NCBI RefSeq assembly: GCF_900104635.1
Contig: NZ_FNWC01000006.1
Coordinates: 186,001-250,000, forward strand
Direction: 5' to 3'
Source of the DNA: Coprococcus phoceensis
Lineage (GTDB): Bacteria; Bacillota; Clostridia; Lachnospirales; Lachnospiraceae
DNA: 64,000 bases
Of this stretch, positions 47,214 to 55,488 are shown one piece after another. How positions within the stretch are numbered: the stretch's first letter is position 1; each line of letters opens with the position of its first letter. The translations under genes were made by a program, and so were the position numbers. The notes beneath the pieces were generated by a model, which saw only the letters and a list, made by a program, of their open reading frames with translations, had not been told where the DNA came from and made no database searches.

Positions 47214-49631
47214 ATGAAATCAAAGAAAATGAAACAAGCGCTTGCTCTTCTTTGTGCAGGTGCAATGACAGTAACAGGAATGAATCTTCCTGTGAATGTA
47301 ATGTCAACAGATGCGGCAGCAGACTGGACATGGAATGCATTGGTTAGTGAATCGGGGTATCGAAAGGTTCCATTCAAAGAGTTATCAGCAATAGCTGATA
47401 CAGAGGCGGCTTCGGAAGGCGCAAGCACAGGTGGAGCATCTCGGGGAACAGGTAGAGCAGTGAATGTAGTGGATGGTGTGACTAGTTCTTATTACCACTC
47501 TGCTTATGAAGGAAATAAACAGCCAATAGTTTCTGACGGTACATTTACGGGAAATAATACAATTACGATAACACTTAATAACCCGGAAAGTGTGCAAGGG
47601 GTTACATATCTTCCGAGACAGGATAGTTATGGAAACGGTGCGATTAGAGAATTCTCTGTTCAAGTACAAAAAGAAGGAAGCACGGATTGGGAGAATGTGC
47701 CGGAGATATTTCAGAATGAATATCCGGACGCTAGTCAATCGACTTGGACAAGCGAACATAAAGCAGAAAAAGAACTTGTATTTGAGAATGAAATCGAAAA
47801 TGTAAAGAAAATTAAGCTGACTGTGACACATTCAGCGGGGCTTCAGTGGAATCGACATATTTCCGGAGCAGAGATTAGTGTCTTGAAACCTCATAGAGAA
47901 GCATTGCAAGATAAGGTCGAAGAAATGGATTCCATCATGGCATTGAATGTACGTGAAGGTGATGAAACATCCGGAAAAGTATATGACAGCAGCCAATATG
48001 ATGTGTTAAAACAACAAGCTGAAGAATTGTTGAACAGTGAGAGCGCAACAGACGAAGATTTGAAAAATGTTTTAACTCAATTGGAAAATTTAGAGTATAA
48101 ATTTTCTGATTCAGTTGGAACAGGAAGATATCTCTCTGATATGACACAAGAATCAGGAACTAGTGGCTGGCATGGAATTGTGAAAGATCAATGTCCGGAT
48201 CAAGATATTAAAATCAAATTGAAAAATAAAGCCGGAACAGTCGATACATATACAAAAGGTATTGGAGCTCATGAGCCATCAACAATTGTTTATAATGTAG
48301 AGGGCTATAAAAAGTTTGTGGCTGAAATTGGTGCATGTTCTCATCATGTAGATGGTACTGACGGTAAAAAAGCAGTTGGTGCAGATGAAAAGGCACATTT
48401 CGTTGTATCAGGAAGCGCTGATAATACTACTTATACAGAGTTATATTCTAATGAAACACTAACGCCAAGAACAGGGGCAGAACACATTGATATTAATATT
48501 CCTGACGATGTGAAATATTTAAAATTAGAATGTAGAAATAAAGAAGGGAATGCAACGCTACATACTTGTTGGGCAAATGCGAAAGTGTATGATTCAGTAG
48601 CAGTTGCAGATATCACATTAGATAAAGAAAGTTTGTCACTTAAGACAGGAGAAAAAGCAACATTAACACCAACGTTTAATCCGACGAACGCGACAAATAA
48701 GGAAGTTGTATGGGAATCGGAAGATGATAGTGTTGCTACAGTAAATGAAAATGGTGAGATCGAAGCAGTAGGCGTTGGAGAAACTGAGATTACAGTAAAA
48801 TCTAAAGCAGATGATACTATCACAGATAGCTGTATTGTAACTGTAACAGCAGATAAAGCAGCATTAGGGCAAGCAATTGCTGCTGCGGATGAAAAAATGG
48901 AAGAAGAGGATTTTGAAGTAAAATATACAGCAGAGTCACTTGCAGATTTCACAGAAGCTTATGAGTATGCAGTAGATGTTAATGTAAAAGCAGATGCGAC
49001 AATAGAAGAAGTTAATATTGCAACAGAATCATTAAAGGCAGCAATTGAAGGATTGCAAGCTAAGTTTGTTGTTACAATCAATAACAACGGAACAACAGAA
49101 ACAAAATACTGCGAGGCTGGAGATCAAGTGACAGTAGTTGCAAAACCAGCGCCGGAAGGTCAGAAGTTCTCACATTGGACAGTAAATGGAACACCAATTT
49201 CTTATAAAGAATCATATACATTTATAGTTTATGGTGACACGACAGTAGAAGCAAAATATGTAGCGAAAGATGAAGTGGTAGAACAAGAAGCTACGATTAT
49301 GTGTACGTCTTATTATGATGTAGCAACTAGTAAAGCTGTTTTTACTGCAAAACGTTCTTTGCCAGCTGGCAGCAAAGTGATTGAACATGGAATTATCATG
49401 ACAGATAGCACGGGATGGAGTAAATTAGGTAATGAAGGATTTGTGATTGGTGCAGAAAGAACTGTGAAAGGTACGGCTAAGACAACTGGATTAATCGGAA
49501 ACTATACATGTAGTATGAAGAGTACAAGAGATACTACATGGTATGGAAAAGGATATGTAAGATACACAGATAAAGATGGAGTGGAGCATACTTTATATAG
49601 CGAAGTGACATCGTGCAAAGTAATTCAATAA
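47214..49631 (+). CDS. Large secreted carbohydrate-binding/Ig-like surface protein
   Basis: 805 residues. The signal peptide (KKMKQALALLCAGAMTVTG) ends near residue 36. Domains in order, judged by pattern: discoidin/F5-8-type (about 65-205; VDGVTSSYYHSAYEGNKQPI), a helical FIVAR-like spacer (about 207-285), an NPCBM-like domain (about 290-440; YTKGIGAHEPSTIVYNVEGY), a Big_2 Ig-like domain (about 455-530; LDKESLSLKTGEKATLTPTF), a second FIVAR-like region (535-605), an InlB-type B repeat (608-670; PEGQKFSHWTVNGTPI) and a C-terminal domain of about 130 residues that I cannot name. No catalytic domain or sortase signal is seen. GGAGAAGGAGAA precedes the ATG. A RiPP-type precursor gene follows at 17 bp. 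Confidence 0.82.
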   Translation: MKSKKMKQALALLCAGAMTVTGMNLPVNVMSTDAAADWTWNALVSESGYRKVPFKELSAIADTEAASEGASTGGASRGTGRAVNVVDGVTSSYYHSAYEGNKQPIVSDGTFTGNNTITITLNNPESVQGVTYLPRQDSYGNGAIREFSVQVQKEGSTDWENVPEIFQNEYPDASQSTWTSEHKAEKELVFENEIENVKKIKLTVTHSAGLQWNRHISGAEISVLKPHREALQDKVEEMDSIMALNVREGDETSGKVYDSSQYDVLKQQAEELLNSESATDEDLKNVLTQLENLEYKFSDSVGTGRYLSDMTQESGTSGWHGIVKDQCPDQDIKIKLKNKAGTVDTYTKGIGAHEPSTIVYNVEGYKKFVAEIGACSHHVDGTDGKKAVGADEKAHFVVSGSADNTTYTELYSNETLTPRTGAEHIDINIPDDVKYLKLECRNKEGNATLHTCWANAKVYDSVAVADITLDKESLSLKTGEKATLTPTFNPTNATNKEVVWESEDDSVATVNENGEIEAVGVGETEITVKSKADDTITDSCIVTVTADKAALGQAIAAADEKMEEEDFEVKYTAESLADFTEAYEYAVDVNVKADATIEEVNIATESLKAAIEGLQAKFVVTINNNGTTETKYCEAGDQVTVVAKPAPEGQKFSHWTVNGTPISYKESYTFIVYGDTTVEAKYVAKDEVVEQEATIMCTSYYDVATSKAVFTAKRSLPAGSKVIEHGIIMTDSTGWSKLGNEGFVIGAERTVKGTAKTTGLIGNYTCSMKSTRDTTWYGKGYVRYTDKDGVEHTLYSEVTSCKVIQ

Positions 49632-49647
49632 AAGGAGAATGATTAGG

Positions 49648-49776
49648 ATGAGAAAAGAATTTTTAGAGCCAGAGTTGGAAGTTATTAAATTTGGAATGGA
49701 AGATATCATAACTACATCAGGTAATGGTGATGTAGAGGATACTGATAGCGATGACATGAAAGATCCTTGGGCATAG
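49648..49776 (+). CDS. Lasso/paeninodin-like RiPP precursor peptide
   Basis: 42 residues. The leader reads RKEFLEPELEVIKFGMEDII, close to the YxxPxLxxxGxxxxxT pattern of lasso leaders, and ends TTS. Thr23 is at position -2 of a Gly at 25, as in lasso precursors. The putative core, GNGDVEDTDSDDMKDPWA, is 18 residues and very acidic, with Asp at core positions 7 and 9, where a ring could close. AAAGGAG precedes the ATG. It shares a transcript with the secreted protein upstream and ends at a terminator; the modification genes start 94 bp further on. Confidence 0.75.
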   Translation: MRKEFLEPELEVIKFGMEDIITTSGNGDVEDTDSDDMKDPWA

Positions 49777-49810
49777 CGAGTTTCCAATGTAAAAGAACAT
49801 AATAGTTTAT

Positions 49811-49838
49811 AAAAAGGGCGTTTCTAACGCCCTTTTTC
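49811..49838 (+). terminator. Intrinsic terminator after the precursor peptide
   Basis: AAAAAGGGCGTT (49811-49822) pairs perfectly with AACGCCCTTTTT (49826-49837). Confidence 0.93.
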
Positions 49839-49869
49839 AATCATTTATAATTAAACTATGGGGGAAGAT

Positions 49870-50337
49870 ATGCGAGACACAACTTTAGAACAGGAATTAA
49901 GAGAAGGGAAGACCTGTGTTTCCACTACGGTGGGAGACAGTATGGAGCCAATGTTACGGAATCGAAAAGACACGGTTATTATTAAGCCGGTTTCGGGGAA
50001 GTTGAAGAGATATGATCTTCCGCTTTATAGGAGACCGGATGGGAAATACGTGTTGCATCGTATTTTGCATGTGAAAAAAGATGGATATGTAATTTGCGGA
50101 GACAATCGTTGGTGGAAAGAATATCCGGTGCCACAGGAATGGATATTAGGTGTTGTCACAGAATTTTACCGCGGTGAGAAACATATTTCAGTGAGAGACC
50201 CAAAGTACCGATTATATGTGCATCTATGGTGTGATTTCTTTTGGGTGCGAGTGATTGTACTTCGGATGAAGAACTTGTTTTCAAGGATTAAAAGGAAATT
50301 AAAAACTCATTGCAAGTCAAAGAATTCAATGTTATGA
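49870..50337 (+). CDS. S24/S26-family signal-peptidase-like protein of the RiPP locus
   Basis: 155 residues. The nucleophile motif is STTVGDSMEPMLRNRKDTVI, with the serine in GDSMEP. The second half has YVLHRILHV and GYVICGDNRWWKEY, the usual S24/S26 core. No clear membrane anchor is present; the C-terminus (WVRVIVLRMKNLFSRIKRKL) is basic and amphipathic. The expected lysine partner is not certain (K-R in the LKRYDLPLYRRPDGK stretch). Proteins of this type recur in clostridial clusters with PqqD and HPr-kinase-like genes and may cut the leader. The ATG at 49870 is chosen because GGGGGA lies just upstream. Confidence 0.8.
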   Translation: MRDTTLEQELREGKTCVSTTVGDSMEPMLRNRKDTVIIKPVSGKLKRYDLPLYRRPDGKYVLHRILHVKKDGYVICGDNRWWKEYPVPQEWILGVVTEFYRGEKHISVRDPKYRLYVHLWCDFFWVRVIVLRMKNLFSRIKRKLKTHCKSKNSML

Positions 50338-50520
50338 TGAAAAAAAGCATTCTATTTTCTATTTATCTAGCCGGTTTTGGCCGGCATCTAATACATTTCA
50401 TATAGCGGATTAAAAAAAATCTGTCCTTTCAGAAAATTCATGCTTTCAAATTACAAATTTACAAGCAGGAGTTTTCGAAGAAGGAAATCTCCTGAACAAT
50501 TTCATAAGAGGAGGTTTTAT

Positions 50521-51552
50521 ATGAGTAAGACAAAAGAAAAGACGCAGAAAGAGGAGTATCTGCAATGGCATCCTGCGTTTTATGCGACGGCTCAGATTGA
50601 ACTGCAGGAGGAAGCAAAATATCTGATCTTTGAGGATGAGCATCAGCTTTCGACAAAACCAATGTCGATTGATGTGCTTGTAATTAAAAACGAGCAGAAA
50701 CATAAGGTTCAGAAAAATATCGGACGTATTTTTCAAAAGTACAATCTGGTGGAATATAAAAGTCCGACAGATTATATCAGTATAGATACCTTTTATAAGA
50801 TATACGGATATGCGTGTTTTTATAAGTCGGACACCGGTACAACTGACGAGATACCAATCAGTGAAGTGACAATCACGTTATTTGGGTTAGGATATCCAAG
50901 AAAATTGATCAAGCATTTGAGAGAAGTCAGAGGATATCAGGTGGAGAAGCAGGAAGACGGAATTTATTATGTGCGCGGTGATTTTATTCCGATTCAAATT
51001 GTGGTCGGAAGTCAATTATCACCAAAAGAAAATCTTTGGCTGCGTGGTTTGACAAGCAAATTAGAAAGTCAAGAGATGCTGGAAGATTTGGTGAAGGATT
51101 ACAGAAAACACAGCGAGAATACATGGTATCAGTCGGCGATGAATATTATCGTGCGAGCAAATGAAGAGAAATTTATGGAGGATGATAGTATGGTATGTGA
51201 TGCATTGATGGAAATTATGGGGGACAAGTTGGAGCAGAGAATTGAGGAAAAAGTGCAGACAGAAGTGGAGAAGAGGGTACAGGCAAGAGTAGAAGAAAAA
51301 GTACAGGCGGAAGTGGAGAAGAGAGTACAGGCAAGAGTAGAAGAAAAAGTGCAGGCGGAAGTGGAGAAGAGAGTACAGGAAGAAGTAGAGAAGAGAGTAC
51401 AGGAAGAAGTAGAGAAGAGAGTACAGGAAATAGAAGGAATCAACGCTCTATATGCTACGTTAATACAACTTGGAAGACAAGAGGAGATTATGAAAGCAAC
51501 AATTGATGAAAATTACCGGAAAAAATTATTGGAAGAATTTAATATCGGATAA
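50521..51552 (+). CDS. Nuclease-like (Rpn/PD-(D/E)XK type) protein with coiled-coil octad repeats
   Basis: 343 residues. The N-terminal half (about 15-220) has the pattern SIDVLVIKNEQKHKVQKNIG, IFQKYNLVEYKSPTDYISID, which resembles PD-(D/E)XK nucleases of the Rpn/transposase type; E and K in VEYKSP fit the catalytic ExK. Residues about 240-305 are eight octad repeats (EKVQAEVE, KRVQARVE), encoded at 51244-51432. AGAGGAGG precedes the ATG. Its sequence has no known role in RiPP synthesis, so it may be an insertion that split the cluster. Confidence 0.65.
   Translation: MSKTKEKTQKEEYLQWHPAFYATAQIELQEEAKYLIFEDEHQLSTKPMSIDVLVIKNEQKHKVQKNIGRIFQKYNLVEYKSPTDYISIDTFYKIYGYACFYKSDTGTTDEIPISEVTITLFGLGYPRKLIKHLREVRGYQVEKQEDGIYYVRGDFIPIQIVVGSQLSPKENLWLRGLTSKLESQEMLEDLVKDYRKHSENTWYQSAMNIIVRANEEKFMEDDSMVCDALMEIMGDKLEQRIEEKVQTEVEKRVQARVEEKVQAEVEKRVQARVEEKVQAEVEKRVQEEVEKRVQEEVEKRVQEIEGINALYATLIQLGRQEEIMKATIDENYRKKLLEEFNIG
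51244..51432 (+). repeat. 24-bp in-frame tandem repeats coding for a coiled coil
   Basis: About eight imperfect 24-bp units such as GTGGAGAAGAGAGTACAG. Each codes for an octad like AEVEKRVQ or ARVEEKVQ. Later units are nearly identical, pointing to recent expansion. Confidence 0.8.
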
Positions 51553-51588
51553 AAAATATCATAGGAAATCAAGGGATATAAGAGGAAT

Positions 51589-52311
51589 ATGGAAAAGAAA
51601 AGTTTACAGATAAGAGTGGCAGATTTGAGTATTAAGATCAATTACAAATATTCATATATTGAGCGGCAGTGTGAAGCGTGGGCAGATAAAAGCAGGCGGG
51701 CGGCAGATCTGGAAGTAGAGGTTTCAGACGAGGAAATAGAAACGGAATATAAAGAATTTTTGTCGGATGGAGTTACAAGAGGAATGTGTGAAAGTGTGTG
51801 CATTTATCGTTCGATTGCCAAAAAACTGATTGCATTTTCGGCGTTTGTTATGCATGGGGCTGTGATAGAACTGGATGGGAAAGCTTATGTGTTTACAGCA
51901 AAAAGCGGTGTGGGGAAGACAACACATACGAAACTTTGGCTGGAATATTTTGAAGGAAGAGCAAGTTACATCAACGGGGATAAACCGATCATCAGATATA
52001 AAAACGGGAACTGGTATGCATACGGAACGCCGTGGATGGGAAAAGAGAAATTTGGAGCGCCCAAATGTGCGCCAATTCAATCTATCTGCTTTATAGAGCG
52101 TGGTGAGAAAAATGAAATCAGGAATATTGATGATAAAGAAGTTGTGGATCGTTTGTTCCATCAATTGTTTTTGCCTCAAAACCCGGAAACATTGATGCGT
52201 TTCATGGAACTTGTAGATCGTATGGTTCGGGAACTCCCATTTTTTGTATTGAAATGTAATATTTCTTTTGAAGCAGTAGAGGTAGCATATGAAGCTTTGA
52301 AAAATGCATAA
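51589..52311 (+). CDS. HPr-kinase-like protein (SerK/PaeK type)
   Basis: 240 residues. The P-loop FTAKSGVGKTTHTKLWL lies near residue 104, and the catalytic-type Asp in SYINGDKPIIRY near residue 128, both as in HPr kinase. The rest, YGTPWMGKEKFGAPKCAPIQ, is typical of the small kinases found in lasso clusters. In the paeninodin system the homologue PaeK phosphorylates a Ser of the precursor. Here the core has one Ser (core position 10). AGAGGAAT precedes the ATG. It lies directly upstream of pqqD. Confidence 0.82.
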   Translation: MEKKSLQIRVADLSIKINYKYSYIERQCEAWADKSRRAADLEVEVSDEEIETEYKEFLSDGVTRGMCESVCIYRSIAKKLIAFSAFVMHGAVIELDGKAYVFTAKSGVGKTTHTKLWLEYFEGRASYINGDKPIIRYKNGNWYAYGTPWMGKEKFGAPKCAPIQSICFIERGEKNEIRNIDDKEVVDRLFHQLFLPQNPETLMRFMELVDRMVRELPFFVLKCNISFEAVEVAYEALKNA

Positions 52312-52380
52312 TAAGGGGTTGCGCTTGCTATTTTGCAGAAATAGCATCATAATAGAAAAAAGAGATTGGAGGACAAAAAG

Positions 52381-52647
52381 ATGAGAGTAAAAGAAGGATT
52401 TTTAAAACGTCAAGTTGGAGATCGTGCAGTTGTTGTGCCGGTTGGAGAGGCTGCGAAAGCATTTCATGGAATGATTAATTTGAATGAGACGGGCGGAGAG
52501 TTATGGGATCTCTTGAAAGAGGAGACTGATGAGGGGAAAATGCTGCAGTCCATGATGGAAATGTATGAAATTGAATACGAACAGGCAAAGAAAAGTTTGG
52601 ATGCCTTTTTGGCTAAATTAAGAGAAGTGGGAGTTTTGGAAGAATAA
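52381..52647 (+). CDS. PqqD-family RiPP recognition protein
   Basis: 88 residues. The PqqD fold, called the RiPP recognition element, binds leader peptides. Typical positions are visible: GFLKRQVGDRAVVVPVGEAA, INLNETGGELWDLLKEETDE and a final helix FLAKLREVGVLEE. In lasso clusters this corresponds to the B1 protein, normally partnered with a B2 protease. No B2 gene is near. The ATG at 52381 is 7 bases after GGAGGA. It is followed 2 bp later by the ABC exporter. Confidence 0.88.
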   Translation: MRVKEGFLKRQVGDRAVVVPVGEAAKAFHGMINLNETGGELWDLLKEETDEGKMLQSMMEMYEIEYEQAKKSLDAFLAKLREVGVLEE

Positions 52648-52649
52648 AG

Positions 52650-54326
52650 ATGGAAAAGAAAAAAATATCCTCTCTTCAATGGATATATAGTTATAGTAGG
52701 AGTTCGTTAGGATGGATTCTTTTGTTGGCAGTATTTAGCGGACTGATTGCGGGAAGTTTCATTTTGCTTGCGCTGGTGTCAAGCTGCCTTCTTGATATTG
52801 CAACCGGAAGCAGAGAAGGAAGTGTGTGGCTTCAAGTGCTTTTTCTTGTTATGCTGATTTTATTGCAGGCAGTTCTGAACATTGCAAGCAGTAATCTGAG
52901 AATTCGTGTCACTACTAAAATTGAGATGCGTATCAAACAAGGTGTTTTTTCTATGATTTTGAAAAAACAATATCAGGAAGTCAGTAAAATCCATTCCGGG
53001 GAGATACTTAATCGATTGACAAGTGATGTAGATATTGTGGTCGGTGGAGTTGTGTCATTGATTCCGCAAGCTATTTCTATGCTGACGAAAATTGCGGCGG
53101 GCTTATTTGTTTTGTTTTCTATTGATGCGCGTTTTACAGGATTGGTGCTTTTGATTGGCGGGCTTGTCTGTGTATTCAGCAGAATTTACAGCAGACATTT
53201 CAAGTATTTGCATAAAGAAGTGCAAAGGACGAATGGCATTGTGCGTTCCTATATGCAGGAGTGTTTGGAGAACTTGATTGTTATTAAATCTTTTGTGAAT
53301 GAGCATGCTGTTGGTGGTAAATTGGATGAATTTCAAAAGGATAATTATAAAGTGCGGATTAAAAGAAATACAATCAGTAATCTGGCAAATACGATGGTAT
53401 ATGTGTTGTTCACAGCAGGGTATTATGCAGCGCTTGCGTGGGGAGCATTACAAATCTCTGTTGGAACCATGACATTTGGTACGTTGACTGCGTTTTTACA
53501 GATTATTCAACAGATCAAAGCACCATTTCGAAACGTTTCCGGCTTAATACCTCAATATTACAGTATGCAGGCTTCAGCAGAACGACTTATGGAGTTGGAA
53601 GCGATGGCGGATGAGCAGGCGGAGTCAAAAATTTTGGATGCCCAAAAGTTCTATAAGGAGTTTCATGCGATTGTGGCAGAGAAAGTTACTTTTTCATATG
53701 CGGGTGGTGAACCTGTTCTCGAAAATACGTCTCTGCGTGTGCAGAAAGGAGATTTGATTGCAATCGTAGGCGAGTCGGGGATTGGAAAAAGCACGCTTAT
53801 GAAGCTGCTTTTGCATCTGATGCCTTGCGACAGTGGTAAGTTGTATTTTGAAACTGAATGCGGCAAAGTGGAGATTGATGCGGGAACGCGAACTGTATTC
53901 TCTTATGTTCCGCAAGGGAATATGATTATGTCAGGAACAATACGGGAAAATATTACATTCTGTAATCCGAAAGTGACGGATGAAGAAATTCAAAGAGCTG
54001 CAAGGGCAGCTTGCATATGGGATTATATTGAAACATTGCCAAATGGACTGGATACTGTTTTATCGGAGCGTGGAGAAGGTCTTTCTATGGGACAGATTCA
54101 ACGGATTGCGATAGCACGTGCGATTTTGGATGATGCCCCAATTCTTTTGTTGGATGAGTGCACTGCATCTTTGGATAAAGAGACAGAATGGAATGTACTG
54201 CAGAATTTGAAAAAGATGAATACAAAGACAATTATTTGTATTTCTCACACTGCGGCTGGAGTACAGTGCTGTGATCGGGCAGTGCGGATTGAAAATAGAA
54301 AGTTTAAAGAGGTGGATTATGAGTAG
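52650..54326 (+). CDS. ABC exporter with fused membrane and ATPase domains
   Basis: 558 residues. Six membrane helices (about 15-310) precede the ATPase: Walker A AIVGESGIGKSTLMKLLL, Q loop PQGNMIMSG, signature LSMGQIQRIAIARAI, Walker B ILLLDECTASLDKE. The signature has Met in place of the first Gly of LSGGQ. There is no N-terminal peptidase domain, so leader removal must be done by another protein. The half-transporter should act as a homodimer and export the RiPP. Its start lies 2 bp after pqqD, and it overlaps the nucleotidyltransferase gene by 8 bases. Confidence 0.92.
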   Translation: MEKKKISSLQWIYSYSRSSLGWILLLAVFSGLIAGSFILLALVSSCLLDIATGSREGSVWLQVLFLVMLILLQAVLNIASSNLRIRVTTKIEMRIKQGVFSMILKKQYQEVSKIHSGEILNRLTSDVDIVVGGVVSLIPQAISMLTKIAAGLFVLFSIDARFTGLVLLIGGLVCVFSRIYSRHFKYLHKEVQRTNGIVRSYMQECLENLIVIKSFVNEHAVGGKLDEFQKDNYKVRIKRNTISNLANTMVYVLFTAGYYAALAWGALQISVGTMTFGTLTAFLQIIQQIKAPFRNVSGLIPQYYSMQASAERLMELEAMADEQAESKILDAQKFYKEFHAIVAEKVTFSYAGGEPVLENTSLRVQKGDLIAIVGESGIGKSTLMKLLLHLMPCDSGKLYFETECGKVEIDAGTRTVFSYVPQGNMIMSGTIRENITFCNPKVTDEEIQRAARAACIWDYIETLPNGLDTVLSERGEGLSMGQIQRIAIARAILDDAPILLLDECTASLDKETEWNVLQNLKKMNTKTIICISHTAAGVQCCDRAVRIENRKFKEVDYE

Positions 54327-55488
54327 AGCAGAAGCGTGCAGATACCTGTTTGAAATTATACGATATAGTCTTGCCGGAGGGGAAGTGCCAACGATACATG
54401 AGGGCGTGGACTGGGAAAAGCTATATCGAATTTGTAAATTTCACAAGATTGAGGCGGTTGTGGCTCATGGAATAGATAAGATTTCGGGAAAGGAACAAAT
54501 TCCTCAGGAGGTTCGAAAAAAGTATGAGCAGGCATGGCAGATGGAAACTGCAAGAGATACGGTACAACATTTTTCTTTAGAGGAGCTTTTGCAGGCTTTT
54601 GAGGCGAATGGTATTTATTGTATTCCCTTGAAAGGAATTTTTTTAAAGCAATGTTATCCAAAGACAGATCTGCGAATGATGGCGGATCTTGATCTTTTGT
54701 TTCGACTGGAGCAGGAAAAGGAAGTAGAAGAGATTCTGCAGCAACTTGGATATTATTGTGATCATCGGGACGATCACCATCATGTGTATTTCCGAAAGCC
54801 GTTTATGAATATTGAGATGCACTATTGTCTGGTGGGACAGAACAGCCAGTTTGCTTCGTATTATAAAAATCCTTGGGAGAAAGCAAAACCAGAGAAAGGG
54901 AAAAAATATATACAGCAATACAGCTGGGAGGATTTTTATGTCTATGTGATTGTTCATATGGCCAAACATTTTCAAAATGGCGGAAGTGGAATTCGCTCCA
55001 TTGTTGATATTTGGCAGTTTGAGAAGAAAATGAAAGATCAGATGGATTGGGATTATGTTGAAACGGAACTTGCTAAAGTAGGTCTGAAAGCGTTTTTACA
55101 TCATATGGAGAAACTTGCGAATATTTGGTTTGAAAAAGGGCAAAGCGATGCGTTCTATGACCAGCTGACAGAATTGATGGTTGATAGCGGAATTTATGGG
55201 ACTATGGAAAACTATTGGATTCAAAATGTGGCGTCTTCCGATAGAAAAGTGTGGATAGGACAGGTGAAGGTATGGCTTACTGCGATTTTTCTTCCGTATG
55301 AAACGATTAAATTGCAGTATAAATATTTAGAAAAGTATCCGATATTCCTTCCGGTTGCGTGGATACAAAGAATTTTCAGAACCTGTTTCAAAAGAAAAGG
55401 GAGAGCAGGGAAGGTACTGGCAGAACAAAAAACAGATTTTTCGAAGGTACGCAAGAGACAGGATGTGTTTGAAAAGCTTGATTTATGA
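54319..55488 (+). CDS. Nucleotidyltransferase-family protein of the RiPP locus
   Basis: 389 residues. The NTP_transf_5-type motif is LKGIFLKQCYPKTDLRMMAD followed by LDLLF, where the Asp pair (DLRMMADLD) would bind metal. A later DDHHHVYFRKPFMNIEMHYC segment fits the family. Such genes accompany paeninodin-type clusters, but their role there is undetermined; transfer of a nucleotide or sugar to the peptide is a guess. AAGAGGTGG precedes the ATG at 54319. It is the last gene of the unit. Confidence 0.83.
   Translation: MSRAEACRYLFEIIRYSLAGGEVPTIHEGVDWEKLYRICKFHKIEAVVAHGIDKISGKEQIPQEVRKKYEQAWQMETARDTVQHFSLEELLQAFEANGIYCIPLKGIFLKQCYPKTDLRMMADLDLLFRLEQEKEVEEILQQLGYYCDHRDDHHHVYFRKPFMNIEMHYCLVGQNSQFASYYKNPWEKAKPEKGKKYIQQYSWEDFYVYVIVHMAKHFQNGGSGIRSIVDIWQFEKKMKDQMDWDYVETELAKVGLKAFLHHMEKLANIWFEKGQSDAFYDQLTELMVDSGIYGTMENYWIQNVASSDRKVWIGQVKVWLTAIFLPYETIKLQYKYLEKYPIFLPVAWIQRIFRTCFKRKGRAGKVLAEQKTDFSKVRKRQDVFEKLDL

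Follow-up and report, generated by a model that had tools for sequence, protein, structure and literature searches.

The subject of this report is a group of genes at positions 49648 to 55488 of a 64,000-nucleotide stretch of the genome of Coprococcus phoceensis (the window), which is probably a Clostridial system of the type that makes linear polyphosphorylated peptides (LPP), with one enzymatic machine that serves precursors scattered over the genome, each of them coupled to a secreted protein. LPP clusters, exemplified by lpp of Paenibacillus alginolyticus DSM5050 (Nat Commun 2026; PMC13381572), encode the precursor LppA, the signal peptidase I (SpI)-like LppS, the kinase LppK, the recognition element LppB, the exporter LppD and the NTP-transferase LppN. 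In B. subtilis, LppK places several phosphates on core residue Ser3, and LppS, together with LppB, removes the leader by a cut after Thr-1; neither the end product nor its role was found in that work (PMC13381572). The window holds the same core set, with a SpI-like peptidase, an HprK-like kinase, a discrete recognition element, an MsbA-like exporter and an NTP transferase, and likewise has neither cyclase nor B2 protease at the locus. The features are the following, RiPP standing for ribosomally synthesized and post-translationally modified peptide and ORF for open reading frame.

47214..49631, + strand: secreted protein of 805 residues with F5/8-type C, NPCBM and Big_2 domains, the proposed partner (ORF, Pfam, secretion call).
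49648..49776, + strand: RiPP precursor A, 42 residues (ORF, protein-database relatives, alignment).
49717..49719, + strand: codon of Ser24, within ITTS, predicted phosphate acceptor (Ser in 38/40 aligned precursors; analogy with LppA Ser3, PMC13381572).
49811..49837, + strand: terminator-like hairpin with T-run, between A and S (-15.3 kcal/mol, z -5.26).
49858..50337, + strand: signal-peptidase-I-like leader peptidase S, catalytic Ser28/His67/Asp82 (profile matches, alignment).
50440..51552, + strand: 370-residue ORF with a charged repeat region (coiled), family uncertain, between S and K (ORF).
51589..52311, + strand: P-loop peptide kinase K, with a PEP-carboxykinase (PEPCK)/HPr-kinase-like fold (weak profile matches, structure model).
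52381..52647, + strand: PqqD-type RiPP recognition element (RRE) B, in which Asn35 corresponds to LppB Asn33 and Ser71 to LppB Asp70 (profile, alignment).
52650..54326, + strand: MsbA-like ABC exporter D, without peptidase domain (profile).
54319..55488, + strand: NTP_transf_5 nucleotidyltransferase-like protein N, start ATG 54319 (PF14907, 223.4 bits).

ORFs and profiles bear out the gene order of the original prediction (precursor, S24/S26 peptidase, HPr-kinase-like protein, PqqD, exporter, NTP_transf_5); its gene list, however, passed over the 370-codon gene and the upstream secreted protein, which is the most unusual part of the locus.

Precursor A, MRKEFLEPELEVIKFGMEDIITTSGNGDVEDTDSDDMKDPWA, begins 16 bp after the stop codon of the secreted-protein gene; an alternative in-frame start exists at ATG 49639, with a ribosome-binding-like AAAGGAG only 2-3 bases 5' of that ATG. 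Twelve relatives in protein databases have a common leader and differing cores. Among 40 aligned precursors (the motif at L141 being read by eye, and matches below 19 bits, of which there was one, in L155, being left out of the counts), position 5 is Tyr in 36 and Phe in 4, Asp19 is as well kept as Ser24 (38/40), and the region beyond residue 25 is acidic and variable. LppA and the window precursor have in common an [aromatic]xxP motif in the leader and, beyond it, a conserved Ser, which lies 18 residues past the Tyr in LppA (Ser3) and 19 past Phe5 in the window (Ser24) when the two are aligned on this motif; it is this spacing that makes Ser24 the predicted acceptor. The sequence in between differs, the window-type motif being ExExIxFxxED[IV]ITTS as opposed to xVLxHQxIxFETxxS in LPP.

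Precursor and recognition element were compared at the residues at which they would touch. In LppB, Asn33 and Asp70 contact the Pro and Tyr of the leader; in paeninodin RREs a conserved Gly stands where LppB has Asn33, and the counterpart of Asp70 in PbaB1 is Gln79 (PMC13381572). A sequence search located the crystal structures of both LppB (9x8z) and PbaB1 (9x90), the latter being the sole paeninodin RRE compared. At the Asn33 position, 41 RREs have Asn (36) or Thr (5) and never Gly, and the window RRE has Asn, as in LPP. At the Asp70 position, Asp is found in 38 and Ser in three (window, L045, L151), and precursors with FxxP occur exactly at these three loci; the 14 other loci for which both partners are available combine Tyr with Asp, as does LPP, so that 17/17 agree (P 0.0015). 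The Phe/Ser swap fits direct binding between RRE and precursor, since Phe is unable to form the hydrogen bond of Tyr.

The original prediction called the locus paeninodin-like, and the likeness to paeninodin-like lasso peptides is real in that kinase, PqqD, exporter, NTP_transf_5 and a short precursor are all present, with a Thr before Ser-Gly as a further resemblance. A lasso pathway of this type whose cyclase and B2 protease are encoded elsewhere in the genome is nevertheless very improbable. The source genome (3.6 Mb, 7 contigs, stated to be 100% complete, the window lying on contig C6) gave no match anywhere to B2 (PF13471) in a profile search, and none of the 18 genomes with a precursor had one above cut-off, a single weak match of 24.3 bits being seen in G120. 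The genome's six matches to Asn_synthase (PF00733), the cyclase family, occupy five places on contig C7, with none on C6; no PqqD gene is near any of them, the smallest distance on C7 between the two being 214 kb. L001 starts with MCGF, presumably as in glutamine-using enzymes, L005 adjoins a purC-like gene and L006 is GMP-synthase-like (both by eye). More favorable to a hidden cyclase are L002 and L003, which have no Met-Cys start. L002:769-2610 (C7 near 816 kb) is an asparagine-synthetase-like gene starting MSGISGW, with no RiPP gene nearby. The absence of B2 and of a nearby cyclase is one difference from paeninodin-like loci; others are FxxP in place of the WxxP leader motif of paeninodin, Asn rather than Gly in the RRE, and, unlike residue 1 of a lasso core, a residue after Thr-Ser that is Gly in only 18/40 precursors (the others including Ile, Phe, Val, Pro, Glu and Asp), an argument valid only if the position after Ser24 is core residue 1, which in a lasso must be able to close the ring (Gly and few others), with Asp or Glu as acceptor at 7-9. 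In addition, an AsnB-like match was found in 0/37 public loci that carry S. A paeninodin lasso cluster was rejected on the lack of B2, the RRE Asn and the unconserved core position, and nothing speaks for a cyclase encoded elsewhere, which the original prediction had offered as one option; the linear product that it listed beside it, with a leader cut by the S26-like enzyme and a phosphorylated core, is the best fit and agrees with the LPP enzyme set (PMC13381572). Distant likeness of kinase and PqqD also extends to the HPr-rel-A/ScmC kinase cassettes TIGR04352, TIGR04353 and TIGR04249, with NCBIfam scores far under the curated cut-offs (14.7 vs 200, 20.3 vs 35 and 22.3 vs 125, respectively). 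The locus of the fourth PqqD gene, at C7:602842 (L013), was set aside, none of the other genes being present there.

Precursor and kinase occur together well beyond the window. A first model of the precursor, A4, derived from 11 sequences (one from the window and one from elsewhere in the same genome), matches 18/299 genomes of the family to which the window belongs, all 18 being among the 76/299 with a kinase match (Fisher 4e-12, and 1e-11 without the own genome). The wider model A7, which includes sequences from many of the matched genomes, matches 23/299, 21 of them with the kinase; G130, G212 and G275 are new with this model, and in the two kinase-free genomes, G005 and G145, only positions 14-31 were matched, within frames of 432 and 418 residues that were excluded from the counts. 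Where the kinase match reaches at least 160 bits, 19/23 genomes besides the own one carry a precursor, as opposed to 1/52 (G291) with a weaker kinase. Of 348 genomes sampled from the phylum, A7 matches three (the own genome, G565 and G328), which are the three with a kinase above 270 bits among the 23 with any kinase match. That the 42-codon gene might fail to be conserved with the kinase and PqqD genes, the outcome named in advance as telling against the original prediction, was hence not what was found.

The enzymes themselves appear to be maintained. The catalytic Ser/His/Asp triad of S is intact in 39/39 sequences, and the comparison with [Ruminococcus] torques ATCC 27756 (L045) gives proportions of non-synonymous and synonymous change (pN/pS) of 0.110/0.829 for S, 0.176/0.769 for K, 0.132/0.746 for B and 0.168/0.538 for the leader codons of the precursor. 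S, K and B are under purifying selection, with few non-synonymous changes and synonymous change near saturation. For K, a confident structure model displays a PEPCK-like fold and sequence profile matches are weak; HPr kinase was not among the 50 matches listed for it, and sequence searches of the PDB turned up only weak, unrelated matches for K and S, and no relative. These data bear on a third option of the original prediction, decay of the locus, taken here to mean a relic that has ceased to yield a product, which we regard as most improbable. It could draw on the 370-residue ORF, which is absent from L045 and looks inserted, given that S and K stand 131 bp apart there, and for which a PHROGs search gave no match (nor did it for S or K); and on L011:6400-8943 of the same genome (C6 near 149 kb), which has N and B, adjoined by broken membrane and secreted-protein remnants, without K, S or an intact precursor. 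Against it, all six genes of the window are open, the low pN relative to pS holds for S, K, B and the leader codons, and the exact window precursor represents a protein cluster seen on 67 contigs.

The 37 public S loci, on several short contigs among others, include both K and B in 27 cases, D in 18, N in 9 and a recognized precursor in 7. L053 (8958-13630), L057 and L069 hold K-B-S-D sets without recognized precursor or N; a protein of ~490-520 residues with a GYGYGYG-like tail, chain-length-regulator-like by eye, comes next in all three, and may be another substrate.

The arrangement of the precursors sets these systems apart from LPP, where clusters, which include capsule loci, hold one to three precursors each (PMC13381572). 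In G282, a single contig of 2.86 Mb, precursors lie at 244, 439, 846 and 1296 kb, with the kinase at 255 kb; in G259, 13 precursor matches are spread over 11 contigs and the kinase is on a further one. In the source genome, L012:4450-9113 (C6 near 474-479 kb) comprises a second precursor, a membrane-stalk protein, a secreted protein of 900 residues, K, B and S, without D or N. The neighbors of the dispersed precursors were counted for the 46 found in the A4 search outside the own genome, a partner being a predicted Sec-secreted protein of at least 300 residues and, if upstream, within 350 bp on the same strand. Such a protein adjoins 34/46 precursors, upstream in 27 and downstream in 7 more; as a control, 27/138 of the remaining ORFs of at least 300 residues in these stretches are secreted, which for two neighbors leads to an expectation of ~35% (P 1e-7), and upstream pairing alone, 27/46, compares with 20% expected (P 6e-9). 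A first pass, in which four cut-off loci had not yet been retaken, gave 23 upstream partners, or 24 with no size limit, and 8 found downstream only, likewise with no size limit. With eight more precursors (window, L012, L045-L047, L049-L051) the count is 41/54, the partner of L012 being assigned by hand, as a membrane-protein gene separates it from the precursor. Homologs of the 805-residue protein precede the precursor at the same place in L045, L046 and L051.

Adjacency of this kind could also arise from a shared regulon or from mobile islands of surface genes, in an LPP-type system with no functional tie to secreted proteins, an explanation that we hold to be less likely than not. In its favor, the partners are diverse: a Pfam scan of 36/41 (L050 and L146, with masked bases, and L123, L153 and L047 being left out) found Flg_new in 7, Big_2 in 6, F5_F8_type_C in 4, LRR_5 in 3 and the subtilase domain Peptidase_S8 in 3, along with single glycoside hydrolases and others. 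A shared docking domain was sought and rejected, 40 C-terminal tails falling into clusters of 15, 10, 3, 3 and 2 with seven singletons. The idea that the peptide anchors partners devoid of wall anchors was likewise dropped, such anchors being present in 0/41 partners (a count that includes one masked tail and one N-masked end) and 2/24 controls, and their lack thus no more distinct than in controls. Moreover, the C-terminal domain of the window's partner was also found in the kinase-free genome G133, in a single-sequence search of low sensitivity. Finally, the hairpin at 49811-49837, which is not in the list of a consensus terminator scanner, stands between A and S, which suggests that precursor and upstream secreted protein are transcribed together and the enzyme genes separately; A would then share the transcript of the secreted protein and not clearly that of the enzymes. 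In contrast, spacing is tight, with 20/23 upstream partner stops of the first pass no more than 65 bp from the precursor ORF, precursors are paired in this way in different genomes despite dissimilar partners, and in some loci the tail of a nearby membrane-stalk protein resembles that of the precursor itself.

This last resemblance is a lead. Small single-transmembrane or lipoprotein-like membrane-stalk proteins are encoded near 11 precursors; at L129 (5000-6047) precursor and stalk protein both end in DEDGW-T/V-type IIVKP tails, and at L150 (5895-6625) both contain EYELPFIP. The likeness was first noticed at L129 and then put to the test on 11 pairs chosen by a rule, L011 being dropped as decayed: tails are more alike within loci than in permuted pairs (P 3e-4; 0.004 without L129; 0.038 without L129 and L150), and with one pair per genome, L120 and L127 both being from G051, the eight possible choices give P 0.0009 to 0.018. 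The precursors of L114, L120 and L127 match their own stalk protein poorly.

Taken together, we think it likely that the locus is a Clostridial relative of LPP that makes a phosphorylated linear peptide, co-produced with a secreted protein, and that in such genomes the machine serves scattered precursors. In the scheme that the sequences suggest, the RRE B would hold the precursor through its FxxPxL motif, K would phosphorylate Ser24 of the conserved ITTS motif and S would cut at or just before ITTS; by analogy with LppA, and as a guess, a cut before TTS would make Ser24 the third core residue. A further modification may come from N, and D would export a short, acidic, linear peptide. The precursor would be made together with the Sec-secreted, surface-type protein encoded directly upstream, and the exported peptide would meet the protein from the adjacent gene outside the membrane; in related genomes, a single enzyme set would act on several precursors encoded at scattered places, mostly next to a secreted protein. 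A more specific proposal, which we put forward tentatively and with more doubt than confidence, is that of a trans-acting K-B-S-D-N machine whose dispersed precursors are each dedicated to the display, retention, activation or control of the adjacent secreted protein, the look-alike tails of stalk proteins competing for, or receiving, the same partner.

Several observations weigh against this interpretation of the locus. The consensus of Bacilli LPP precursors, YxxPxVLxHQxIxFETxxS (PMC13381572), is matched only in part, with Phe for Tyr, no HQ and no FET, and it is on account of these last two that the locus is called LPP-type and not a proven member. Since the window and L045 are close relatives, the Phe/Ser combination amounts to about two events; among the 14 Tyr/Asp loci, several are of the Ruminococcus flavefaciens type, so that here too events are fewer than loci. 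Four genomes with a strong kinase (G210, G141, G297 and G248) gave no precursor match, and 20 of 37 or more S loci lack a recognized precursor (A in 7/37), so that either precursors are diverse or S, K and B also serve other substrates. As for the pairing, secretion was predicted with a simple home-made rule for signal peptides, the P-values overstate independence because 10/46 precursors come from one genome, and 12/46 have no qualifying secreted neighbor; among the unpaired precursors, L119, L124 and L126 lie within an enzyme cluster, L115 and L127 are cut by contig ends, L149 has a split frame, a membrane-stalk gene is the neighbor at L129 and L150, and no signal was found at L135.

What seems new here with respect to published LPP is the dispersal of the precursors and their pairing with a large secreted protein. 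A literature search that covered few subscription papers found no description of either; the words “secreted,” “surface” and “scattered” are absent from the main text of PMC13381572, as are “Clostridi” and “Lachnospir,” the hosts here being of Clostridial type. The pairing of Phe/Ser versus Tyr/Asp indicates how a precursor and its recognition element stay matched. If the proposed reading is true, these genomes would offer an uncommon example of a single RiPP machine in charge of many scattered precursors. The hosts are gut-type bacteria, in which surface proteins matter for colonization, and the pairing provides a first testable lead to the role of LPP, in that each peptide gene points at a named neighbor protein.

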